Assembly (NCBI RefSeq): GCF_000423445.1
Contig: NZ_KE384019.1
Span: 211,297 to 275,296 of the forward strand
Direction of reading: 5' to 3'
DNA from: Acidipropionibacterium thoenii DSM 20276
GTDB lineage: Bacteria; Actinomycetota; Actinomycetes; Propionibacteriales; Propionibacteriaceae
DNA length: 64,000 nucleotides
Below the pieces are notes generated by a model, which had not been told where the DNA came from, searched no databases, and saw only the letters and a program-made list of their open reading frames with translations. Positions 9,705 through 25,671 of the stretch are shown piece by piece. Every line of letters starts with the position of its first letter. Positions within the stretch are counted from its first letter, which is position 1. The position numbers were made by a program, and so were the translations under genes.

Positions 9705-10466
9705 GTGACCACTCAGCCTGCGCGCCCCGAGCTCAGAGACCGGGAACCTGCATCCGACGAGGCCCCGGAGCCACCGGCTGGGCCGGTGACCCCTGCCCAG
9801 GAGCAGTTGCTGAAGGTGCTGTGGGGCCTGGAGATCGAGCAGGGACGGCGAGTCACGAACTCTCTGCTGGCAGAACAGGTCGGACTTCACACCTCGACCG
9901 TCTCCGATGCGGTGCGCCGGATGGCCGACGACGGCTATGTCGAGCACCGCCGGTACGGGACGGTGGAGCTGACCGGAGCCGGCCAGGAGATCGCCGTTCA
10001 GGTGGTCCGGCGTCACCGGCTCCTGGAGACCTACCTGGTCAGCAGCCTGGGGTACACCTGGGACGAGGTGCACGAGGAGGCCGATGTGTTGGAGCATGTG
10101 GTCTCCGACAAGCTCATCGAGCGGATCGACGAGAAGCTCGGCTATCCGTTGAGGGATCCCCATGGCGATCCCATCCCCGACTCCTCGGGGAGGCTCCCGG
10201 CGCTGACCCAGGCGACGTCGATGGTGAAACTGGCGACCGGGGCGGTGGCGCAGGTGAGCCGGATCCTCAGCGACAATCCCGAACTGTTGAGGTACTTCGC
10301 CGCTCTGGGGTTGGCCCCCGGGGCCCGGGTGGAGATCCTCGAGCCGCCTCCGTTCACCCGCGATGTGCGGATCCGGATCGACGGTGGGGCTCCCGTGGTG
10401 TTGGGTGAGCCCGCCGCCGAGGAGGTCCTCACCGACGCGACCGAAGGTGGGACCGACCACAGCTGA
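9705..10466 (+). CDS. mntR: DtxR/MntR-family metal-dependent repressor
   Basis: A 253-residue metalloregulator. After a disordered first 25 residues comes a winged helix (LLAEQVGLHTSTVSDAVRRMADDGYVEHRRYG), then the metal-binding dimerisation domain with RHRLLETYLVSSLGYTWDEVHEEADVLEHVVSDKL (Glu/His ligands), and a C-terminal FeoA/SH3-like domain (about 170-245). Start GTG 9705 has a TACCGT -10 box 7 bases upstream and no ribosome site. It converges with the manganese transporter mntH 42 bp away, which makes Mn(II) the likely co-repressor. An iron-sensing role (IdeR/DtxR) cannot be excluded from sequence alone. Confidence 0.87.
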   Translation: MTTQPARPELRDREPASDEAPEPPAGPVTPAQEQLLKVLWGLEIEQGRRVTNSLLAEQVGLHTSTVSDAVRRMADDGYVEHRRYGTVELTGAGQEIAVQVVRRHRLLETYLVSSLGYTWDEVHEEADVLEHVVSDKLIERIDEKLGYPLRDPHGDPIPDSSGRLPALTQATSMVKLATGAVAQVSRILSDNPELLRYFAALGLAPGARVEILEPPPFTRDVRIRIDGGAPVVLGEPAAEEVLTDATEGGTDHS

Positions 10467-10508: not shown

Positions 10509-11897
10509 TCAGAACAGCCCGCCCACGGTCTGCCAGATGAGCTGGAGGTTGAGGACGGTGAGCACGCCGGTGGCCAACCATCCCACCACCACCACCCAGC
10601 GCCGATTGGCGAACTCGCCCATGATCTTCTTCGACGAGGTGAACCAGACCAGCGGGATCATCGAGATGGGCAGGGCCACGCAGAGGAAGACCTGCGAGTC
10701 GATGAGCAGCGCGTCCAGCGCGCCCTCCTTGCCGCCGAAGATCAGGGTGCAGATCACGACCGGGATGATGGCGATGACGCGGGTGACGACTCGGCGCAGC
10801 CAGAGGGGAATGTGCATCTTGATGAACCCCTCCATCACCACCTGTCCGGTGAGGGTCCCGGTGATGGTGGAGTTCTGGCCCGAGGCCAGCAGGGCCACCG
10901 CGAACAGCACACTCAGCACCGGGCTGGCGACCGCCCCGGCGATGTCGGAGTCCTTGAGGGCGTCGAAGACCGAACCGAGTGTTCCCAGGTCGGAGCCTCT
11001 GCCGTAGAACATCGCCGCTCCGAGCAGCAGCAGCAGGGTGTTGACGATGAAGGCGACGGCCAGTTCCATGTTGGAGTCGATGGTCGCGAAGCGCACCGCC
11101 TGCCGTCTGGCCTCGATCGAGGTCCGGTCATAGGCCCGTGACTGGACGATCGCCGAGTGGAGGTACAGATTGTGCGGCATCACGGTGGCCCCCACGATGC
11201 CCAGAGCCATGGTGAGCTGGCCGTCGTGGGTCAGTGAGGGGGAGGGCACGAAGCCGGCGAGGATCTGGGGGATGTCTGGCCTGGCGAGGACCACCTGGTA
11301 GATGAAGATCACCATGATCGTGGTGATGAGCACCACGACGAGCGCCTCAATCCTGCGCATCCCGACACGCAGCAGCAGGAGGAGCAGGAAGACGTCGAGA
11401 ACCGTGACGATCACGCCCACCGTCAAGGGGATGCCGAAGAGCAGGTGGAGTGCGATCGCGGCGCCGATCACCTCGGCGATGTCGGTGGCCATGATGGCCA
11501 GCTCGGTGATGATCCACAAGGTGATTCCGAGCTTGCGGCCGGTGTGTGCGCGGGTCGCCTGAGCCAGGTCCATCCCGGTGACGATGCCCAGTTTGGCTGA
11601 CATGTACTGCAACAGCATGGCGATGAGGCTGGAGATCAGCACCACTGACAGCAGTGTGTAGCCATACCTCGCGCCGCCGCCGATCGACGTCACCCAGTTT
11701 CCCGGATCCATGTAGCCGACTGCCACCAGAGCGCCCGGACCGGCATAACTGGCCAGTGTCCGCAGGAAGCCGGTTCCGGCCGGGGGTACCGGCACCGAAG
11801 CATTGACCTCCCCCAGGGAGGTGCCGTCGGCCGGCTGAATGAGTCGTCGTCGTCGCGAACCGTCCAAGGCTGTGGTCGCCTCTGCCAACTCTCTCAT
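10509..11897 (-). CDS. mntH: Nramp-family Mn2+/H+ symporter MntH
   Basis: A 462-residue divalent-metal transporter with 11 or so membrane helices. The two metal-binding signatures are present: DPGNW at residues 64-68 and MPHN at 240-243. The start was placed at ATG 11897 (MRELAEATT), which has GGAAGGAT upstream; the longest frame adds 14 residues. Convergent with mntR, and a palindrome 65-86 bp upstream of the start is the probable operator. It should import Mn2+ (and perhaps Fe2+) when the cytoplasm is manganese-poor. Confidence 0.95.
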   Translation of the reverse strand: MRELAEATTALDGSRRRRLIQPADGTSLGEVNASVPVPPAGTGFLRTLASYAGPGALVAVGYMDPGNWVTSIGGGARYGYTLLSVVLISSLIAMLLQYMSAKLGIVTGMDLAQATRAHTGRKLGITLWIITELAIMATDIAEVIGAAIALHLLFGIPLTVGVIVTVLDVFLLLLLLRVGMRRIEALVVVLITTIMVIFIYQVVLARPDIPQILAGFVPSPSLTHDGQLTMALGIVGATVMPHNLYLHSAIVQSRAYDRTSIEARRQAVRFATIDSNMELAVAFIVNTLLLLLGAAMFYGRGSDLGTLGSVFDALKDSDIAGAVASPVLSVLFAVALLASGQNSTITGTLTGQVVMEGFIKMHIPLWLRRVVTRVIAIIPVVICTLIFGGKEGALDALLIDSQVFLCVALPISMIPLVWFTSSKKIMGEFANRRWVVVVGWLATGVLTVLNLQLIWQTVGGLF

Positions 11898-11961
11898 CGA
11901 CCATCCTTCCGGAACTTTCGTTCCGAACATCATTATCACACTCTTGGACGATCAGAGAAAA

Positions 11962-11983
11962 ATTGTTTGTACTACCAAACAAT
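11962..11983. promoter_or_regulatory. Probable MntR operator upstream of mntH
   Basis: Perfect inverted repeat: ATTGTTTG, six bases TACTAC, CAAACAAT. It is the only AT-rich palindrome in the gap between mntH and the divergent HAD-like gene, and its size fits a DtxR/MntR dimer site. Assignment to MntR rests on the neighbouring genes, not on a matched consensus. Confidence 0.6.
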
Positions 11984-24170: not shown

Positions 24171-24370
24171 TGACAGTCATGGATCTCCCTCGTGATGGTG
24201 TCCAGACGGTCGCTGTTGAGACGGATGCCGTCCGGGCCGGGATCGTTGATCGTCTCACCTTATGTCGCGGAGCCGTGGGACGGGCCGCTGATGACCAGTT
24301 CGGGTCCGCCCTCGCCAGGACTGGTTCCCATTCGCATGTTCTGGCAAGTGTCGGGCGCTGTGGCAATATG

Positions 24371-24518
24371 GGTCGGCGAAGGGGAGTAGCTCCCGACCCC
24401 TGGACCGGTGCTGCCGAGCAGAACAGGTTCAGGACGAGAGATGCATCGACACAATGGCGGGCCTGTGAGCCTGCCCGGTGCATCACCTGCGGCATGCGGG
24501 CGGGCGAGACCTTCGACC
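24371..24518 (+). promoter_or_regulatory. Manganese riboswitch (yybP-ykoY class) upstream of the VIT1 gene
   Basis: The leader has the hallmark loop sequences of this Mn2+-sensing class: GGGGAGTAGC at 24381-24390 and GCGAGACCTT at 24504-24513. The closing helix P1 pairs GGTCG(gc)GAAGG (24371-24382) with CCTTCGACC (24510-24518), leaving a two-base bulge. The aptamer ends 58 bp before the start of a ferritin-like/VIT1 transporter, a known type of target. It should switch expression on when Mn2+ is high. Confidence 0.8.
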
Positions 24519-24576
24519 GCCCACCGTGCCGGTGGCGCTCGTTGGTCCCAGCGCGGTCGATGACCGAAGGATTGCA

Positions 24577-25671
24577 ATGACCCGGGCCGTTACCCCGTCA
24601 CGCTCACGCGCTCAGGCGCGTTCACAGCGCAGATGGCGCCGCTACCTCGCCGACGAACGCGCCGAGGCCGCGATGTACCGATCCCTGGCACGCCGGCGTC
24701 ACGGCGAGGAGCGCGAGATCCTGCTGGCCCTGGCCGATGCCGAGGGCCGTCACGAGAGGCACTGGCTGGATCTGCTGGGCGACGAGGTGGGACGCCCGCT
24801 GCGCCCGGCACTGCGCACCCAGTTCCTGGGACTGCTGGCCAGATGGTTCGGTTCGGTCTTCGTGCTGGCGCTGATCCAGCGCGCCGAGGCCCGCTCCCCG
24901 TACTCCAAGGATCCCGATGCCACCCCGAAGATGGCCGCCGATGAGCAGATGCACGAGGAGATCGTCCGAGCTCTGGCCGAGCGCGGCCGCAACAGACTGT
25001 CGGGTTCCTTCCGGGCCGCCGTCTTCGGAGCCAACGACGGACTGGTGAGCAACCTCTCGCTGATCCTGGGTGTCGGGGCCAGTGGCGTCTCGTCGCACGT
25101 GATCCTGGTCACGGGCGTCGCCGGGCTGTTCGCCGGGGCACTGTCGATGGGGGCCGGGGAGTACGTCTCGGTGCACTCCCAACGTGAGCTCCTGGAGGCC
25201 TCCCGACCCAATCCCGAGGTGCTCAAGATCATTCCCGACCTGGGTGTCGACAACAACGAGTTGGCGCTGCTCTACCGTGCTCATGGCATGAGCGAGGAGC
25301 AGGCGAGGAAGCGAGCCGATCTCGTGCTGGGTGAGGGTACCGCTGACACCAGCGTCATCCTCGACCAGCCCAGCGACGTCAGCCACGAGGAGATCGGTAC
25401 CGGAATGGGTGCCGCCCTGTCGAGCTTCTGCTTCTTCGCCTCGGGGGCGATCATCCCGATCTTCCCGTACATTTTCGGGATGTCCGGGATGACGGCGGTG
25501 TTCACCGCCGCCGGCCTGGTCGGCGTCAGCCTGCTCGGCACCGGAGCGGTCGTCGGGCTGCTGTCCGGGGCGTCCCCGGCCAAGCGGGCGCTGCGCCAGC
25601 TCGCCATCGGGTACGGGGCGGCCGCGGCCACCTATCTGCTCGGAATGCTCTTCGGCACCGAGGTGCACTGA
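24577..25671 (+). CDS. Ferritin-like domain fused to VIT1/CCC1-type metal transporter
   Basis: A 364-residue protein. Residues 20-125 form a rubrerythrin/ferritin-like diiron bundle (YLADERAEAAMYRSLARR, DAEGRHERHWLDLL, EQMHEEIVRAL). Residues 138-364 form the VIT1/CCC1 membrane domain (FRAAVFGANDGLVSNLSLILGVGA, LSMGAGEYVSVHSQREL, and three C-terminal helices). The family moves Fe2+ or Mn2+ out of the cytoplasm, and the upstream Mn riboswitch points to manganese efflux. Start ATG 24577 follows GAAGGA; the longer frame from 24478 lies inside the riboswitch. Confidence 0.9.
   Translation: MTRAVTPSRSRAQARSQRRWRRYLADERAEAAMYRSLARRRHGEEREILLALADAEGRHERHWLDLLGDEVGRPLRPALRTQFLGLLARWFGSVFVLALIQRAEARSPYSKDPDATPKMAADEQMHEEIVRALAERGRNRLSGSFRAAVFGANDGLVSNLSLILGVGASGVSSHVILVTGVAGLFAGALSMGAGEYVSVHSQRELLEASRPNPEVLKIIPDLGVDNNELALLYRAHGMSEEQARKRADLVLGEGTADTSVILDQPSDVSHEEIGTGMGAALSSFCFFASGAIIPIFPYIFGMSGMTAVFTAAGLVGVSLLGTGAVVGLLSGASPAKRALRQLAIGYGAAAATYLLGMLFGTEVH

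Follow-up and report, generated by a model that had tools for sequence, protein, structure and literature searches.

In the stretch of Acidipropionibacterium thoenii DSM 20276 DNA analysed here (64,000 nucleotides, referred to as the window), a leader precedes a gene whose product joins a ferritin-like domain to a VIT1-type transport domain. This raises the question of which signal controls the gene and which metal its product would remove. The preferred answer, to which a probability of about 0.75 is assigned, is that positions 24374–24524 form a divergent actinobacterial yybP-ykoY Mn2+ riboswitch that acts as an ON switch for the fusion gene starting at 24577, and that the product removes excess Mn2+ and possibly Fe2+. 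The initial annotation had likewise proposed a Mn sensor RNA governing a metal exporter; the presence of this riboswitch class ahead of the fusion gene was confirmed, and control of the gene by the RNA and export of metal by its product would hold by inference.

The aptamer and its actinobacterial relatives

The predicted aptamer and its parts, all on the forward strand, are the following.
24374–24524, +: Mn2+ (yybP-ykoY class) riboswitch aptamer, from the match to model R3 (see below), a weak RF00080 match and the fold (z = −3.9)
24377–24382, +: P1 switch helix, 5' strand CGAAGG, pairing with 24510–24515; covariation across 60 other sites at five of its six pairs
24381–24390, +: L1 motif GGGGAGTAGC; its core GGGAGUA is identical in 60/60 other sites
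24399–24433, +: variable side hairpin of the four-way junction, from the fold; its length differs between relatives
24440–24484, +: P3/L3 arm with the metal loop inside (24440–24448 with 24476–24484, 24456–24462 with 24469–24475), from the fold, covariation and R3
24451, +: discriminator adenosine A24451
24486–24500, +: P4-like hairpin, from the fold
24510–24515, +: P1 switch helix, 3' strand CCTTCG; its alternative partner is the downstream anti-P1/Shine-Dalgarno segment

The two conserved loops and the closing P1 helix, on which the initial annotation had based its class assignment, were found where it had placed them: the L1 loop GGGGAGUAGC and the L3-side GAGACCU(U) are exact at 24381–24390 and 24506–24513 and are closed by P1, and the 3' conserved loop motif GCGAGACCTT lies at 24504–24513. 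When folded in isolation, the aptamer forms P1, P2, the side hairpin, the long P3/L3 arm and the P4-like hairpin, and none of the shuffled sequences folded as well. A24451 aligns, via ACA48UACU of PMC6754395, with A48 of the Xanthomonas oryzae and A41 of the L. lactis riboswitch, the N7 of which touches Mn2+ (PMC6754395).

Among the Rfam families, RF00080 gave the sole sensible match to the locus (24364–24533), with a score of 18.1 bits, where the curated cut-off is 45, and a search of the A. thoenii genome with this model returned no match at E ≤ 0.001. The same holds more widely: none of the 395 Actinomycetes genomes contained a match above the cut-off, and with permissive filters the best of 20 actinobacterial loci reached 34 bits, with no other Rfam family claiming these positions. 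All tested members of the actinobacterial group score 18–34 bits, those associated with mntP included. The weak RF00080 matches in the family and the class comprised five sites with exact GAAGGGGAGTAGC...GCGAGACCTTC, located upstream of genes for MntP (two), Na/Ca-exchanger-like proteins (two) and GDT1/UPF0016 (one). These five sites and the two Acidipropionibacterium leaders (A. thoenii and A. jensenii) were used to build a covariance model, R1, which detected sites in 38 of the 157 genomes of the family (E ≤ 0.1) and in 154 of the 395 Actinomycetes genomes, i.e., about 40% (E ≤ 0.01). In the alignment of 58 R1 matches, 97.1% of the cells were paired and 261 cells carried double changes, as opposed to 80 in shuffles, with no shuffle as good.

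A further model, R3, was derived from 60 actinobacterial sites from which the A. thoenii locus, A. jensenii and the fusion-gene site of a genome from another actinobacterial family (G442) were left out. In this training set, 95.8% of the cells were paired, double-change cells numbered 305 versus 94 in shuffles (none of 500 reached the observed level), and changes on both sides were seen in 19 of the 25 pairs (18–19 of 25 across the R1 and R3 alignments). The 3'-side GAGAC, the L1 core and the L3 adenosine are invariant or nearly so in these sites. R3 matched the A. thoenii locus at 24374–24524 with 70 bits (E 4.8e-15, genome-wide), and the next match had an E-value of 5.6; therefore, the genome has no other clear site of this type. 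A chance resemblance, to which the Rfam score far under the cut-off would point, is refuted by this match to an independent model, the covariation, the conservation in A. jensenii and the exporter gene downstream.

By its defining structural features, and as judged from sequence, the RNA is a divergent variant of the yybP-ykoY class that misses only the library score threshold; it is filed as such because the other tested actinobacterial members, mntP-associated ones included, also miss the cut-off. For the same reason, the proposal in the initial annotation that a poor covariance score would speak against the riboswitch proved unworkable, since the Rfam model places every tested actinobacterial member below its cut-off, the present locus included, while R3 gives it 70 bits.

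The genes directly downstream of all 58 R1 sites encode GDT1/UPF0016 (28), Na_Ca_ex (12), TerC (8), MntP (7) and ferritin-VIT1 (3) proteins, as assigned from protein clusters with Pfam run on one representative per cluster; more TerC and GDT1 genes lie behind the riboswitch beyond these 58 sites. The MntP and GDT1/UPF0016 families include known Mn exporters.

The fusion protein and the metal it would export

Downstream of the aptamer, the following coding features were recognised.
24577–25671, +: ferritin-like/VIT1 fusion protein, 364 aa, with an ATG start; from Pfam, with the ATG and Shine-Dalgarno sequence conserved in A. jensenii
24625–24996, +: N-terminal ferritin-like four-helix domain with a complete diiron ligand set, from ligand conservation and weak Pfam and PDB profile matches
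25009–25644, +: VIT1/CCC1 membrane transport domain, from PF01988 and the plant VIT1 structure 6iu3 (E 3.6e-12)

The fusion described in the initial annotation is supported. The VIT1 domain matches PF01988 over aa 145–356 (187.4 bits, E 4e-55). The ferritin-like domain scores 18.3 bits against the rubrerythrin family in Pfam, below its cut-off of 22.8, and the PDB profile search gave weak matches with ferritin-like proteins at the top; its diiron ligands E27/E30, E56xxH59, E104 and E123xxH126 are invariant in 23 relatives. An AlphaFold model based on three sequences reached a pLDDT of 40 and was discarded. From its sequence, the protein is assigned to the MbfA-type architecture. Oxidation or buffering of Mn by the ferritin-like domain, along the lines of the initial annotation, would be hypothetical.

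This assignment leads to a possible, though doubtful, alternative in which the aptamer senses Mn2+ while the protein is mainly an iron exporter or ferroxidase, so that high Mn would serve as a signal of oxidative or mismetallation stress upon which free iron is lowered. MbfA of Bradyrhizobium and Agrobacterium is an iron exporter whose ferritin-like domain acts as a ferroxidase (PMC4902296, PMC7762939), and the diiron ligands are fully retained in the A. thoenii protein. However, the other genes under the riboswitch group belong to families with known or suspected exporters of Mn or other divalent cations, and neither MntP nor GDT1, the Mn exporter families most common among those tested, was found in the A. 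thoenii genome or in that of G442, so that a Mn exporter would otherwise be hard to find in A. thoenii. No convincing riboswitch was found at the two TerC genes of A. thoenii either. Mn export, possibly alongside Fe2+, is considered the best reading because the other members of the group precede genes of families that include known Mn exporters, of TerC and of exchanger types, and because this genome lacks MntP and GDT1; the position of the riboswitch ahead of a ferritin-VIT1 protein so far tied to iron alone suggests that A. thoenii uses this protein to export excess Mn.

The pairing of riboswitch and fusion gene was also followed across genomes. A. jensenii has the same fusion gene (89% identity) behind the same leader. 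The class sample contained about 35 full-length fusions, of which one more, in G442, was preceded by an R1 site 92 nt upstream. A single clade for the riboswitch-bearing fusions was rejected (log-likelihood 136.5 lower, p-AU 1.7e-95); as they do not form one clade, the pairing most simply arose twice. Aptamer identity (from sequence and covariation), the discriminator adenosine, the association with exporter genes and this second independent pairing are all results of computation. Counted against the main explanation is that most fusion genes of the family, including that of the nearest metagenome-assembled genome (MAG; 85% identity), have no riboswitch.

In this MAG, a CAGCAT hexamer stands about 8 nt before the ATG (L032 3955–3986), as if the mRNA were leaderless. 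Retention of the promoter there seemed suggestive by eye and was dropped, as 56 of 300 shuffles were as good. In two Acidipropionibacterium species that lack the fusion gene (G003 and G027), the riboswitch lies on TerC; the target varies within the genus. G442 apparently has three Mn riboswitches, i.e., the one before ferritin-VIT1 and weaker ones (R1 25.6 and 32.5 bits) before two TerC genes.

The metal regulator and importer that the initial annotation had noted in the same window are present.
9705–10463, +: three-domain DtxR-family regulator (with FeoA/SH3-like domain), a candidate MntR or IdeR
10512–11939, −: Nramp (mntH-like) importer gene

The two genes are convergent neighbours, 12.5 kb from the riboswitch locus. 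Directly upstream of the Nramp gene lies a perfect palindrome, ATTGTTTG-TACTAC-CAAACAAT (N6 spacer, 11962–11983), which is a plausible candidate for an operator bound by the adjacent DtxR-type regulator; the region upstream of the fusion gene contained no DtxR-box-like site or such palindrome better than chance. Opposite controls of import and export, as envisaged in the initial annotation, with import repressed by the DtxR-type regulator and export activated by the riboswitch, would be a plausible, hypothetical scheme for these loci.

Expression platform and ligand

Two features flank the aptamer.
24364–24369, +: CAATAT, a probable −10 element, of which CAnnAT is kept in A. jensenii
24553–24571, +: anti-P1 segment, consisting of GCGGTCG (24553–24559) and CGAAGG (24565–24570), overlapping the Shine-Dalgarno sequence GAAGGA (24566–24571)

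A scan for sigma-70 promoters gave no full match. At most other sites, a TAnnnT-like −10 hexamer is found at a short and nearly constant distance before P1; therefore, the 5' edge of the aptamer is the probable start of transcription, which in A. thoenii would be about 24375–24377, at the 5' edge of P1.

Within the anti-P1 segment, CGAAGG repeats the P1 5' strand and contributes to the Shine-Dalgarno sequence. The whole segment is predicted to form a duplex with the P1 3' strand of −15.6 kcal/mol, which 1 of 100 shuffles equalled, and a complement of the P1 3' strand occurs shortly downstream at most of the 58 sites (mean z −2.1). In the modelled leader without ligand, P1 was absent and most of the Shine-Dalgarno bases were paired. 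Imposing P1 left the Shine-Dalgarno sequence mostly free in A. thoenii, less completely so in A. jensenii, and unchanged in G442; forcing P1 without ligand costs 8–14 kcal/mol in this purely thermodynamic folding, which ignores tertiary contacts expected to be stabilised by Mn2+.

Under the proposed mechanism, Mn2+ at a high cytoplasmic concentration would dock L1 onto L3 and stabilise P1 (24377–24382 with 24510–24515). The P1 3' strand would then be barred from pairing with the anti-P1/Shine-Dalgarno segment, and translation would increase, leading to an MbfA-type membrane-bound ferritin-like transporter that would clear the surplus metal, most likely Mn2+ and possibly also Fe2+. At low Mn2+, the anti-P1/Shine-Dalgarno region would be sequestered. 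In the folding models, a translational switch turned on by Mn appears to be the best-supported mechanism. Mn2+ binding, the ON logic, translational control and Mn transport are inferred.

Control by Rho-dependent or intrinsic transcription attenuation instead of ribosome access is judged unlikely. The anti-P1 hairpin is general in the class, and the E. coli mntP riboswitch joins translational with Rho-dependent control (PMC11647493), but no intrinsic-terminator-like site was seen at 24200–24650 and the anti-P1 segment overlaps the Shine-Dalgarno sequence at the A. thoenii locus.

A further view, that the actinobacterial group is a specificity variant sensing Fe2+ or another divalent ion instead of Mn2+, is considered very improbable. 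It draws on position 24448 in the L3 arm, where the A of the Rfam consensus (UCAACA) is replaced by G in every one of the 60 actinobacterial sites (UCGACA), a clade signature with an invariant C opposite, and on a review in which such yybP variants are expected (PMC7266159). However, the substitution lies in a base pair of which both partners have changed, 60/60 other actinobacterial sites retain the discriminator A that donates N7, and MntP and GDT1 are among the targets. A reading of UCGACA as the loss of the Mn-sensing A was rejected, since the numbering of PMC6754395 (ACA48UACU) places the discriminator at the later A, and this one is retained.

Comparison with known systems

Both the RNA class and the kind of protein are already known. 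What may be new, as far as the searched literature goes, is that the two are combined, and how large the actinobacterial group under the Rfam cut-off is: no publication linking a yybP-ykoY or Mn riboswitch to VIT1 or MbfA genes was found in a search that had the gene lists of the 2015 founding papers (Dambach, Price) outside its reach, and one match, a Rhodococcus phage paper, only mentions VIT proteins. A Mn riboswitch group that occurs in about 40% of the sampled Actinomycetes genomes is concealed by the Rfam threshold, and leader sequences can therefore now serve to predict Mn-export genes throughout the class. It is, on balance and by a modest measure, probable that Actinomycetes possess a large Mn riboswitch regulon missed almost entirely by the RF00080 cut-off, and that an MbfA-type transporter was recruited into it at least twice as a Mn exporter. 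If so, the MbfA-type ferritin-VIT1 family would represent a route of Mn detoxification and not of iron alone. Such an assignment of Mn, and not only Fe, to a ferritin/VIT1 transporter in a genome without MntP or GDT1 can be tested.

The A. thoenii RNA resembles the yybP-ykoY Mn2+ riboswitch (RF00080; e.g., L. lactis yoaB, X. oryzae, and E. coli mntP/alx) in its L1 GGGGAGUAGC, the L3 discriminator A and the P1 switch helix, as well as in its four-way-junction-like layout, the exporter genes downstream, and an expression platform in which the P1 3' strand finds a second partner. It differs from RF00080 in the low scores of its group (18–34 bits, cut-off 45), in an invariant G-C that replaces the consensus pair by L3, and in GC-rich variable arms, and it differs from the named yybP-ykoY systems in that the target is a ferritin-VIT1 gene. 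The protein shares its domain order and diiron ligand pattern with MbfA, the membrane-bound ferritin; unlike alpha-proteobacterial MbfA, which is Irr-regulated and exports iron, the A. thoenii gene stands behind a Mn riboswitch in an actinobacterial host. The locus also resembles the riboswitch-controlled actinobacterial genes of the MntP, GDT1/UPF0016, TerC and Na/Ca-exchanger types, in which the same aptamer group is situated with a TAnnnT-like −10 element before it and the start codon after it, and from which the A. thoenii gene differs in the transporter family encoded downstream.
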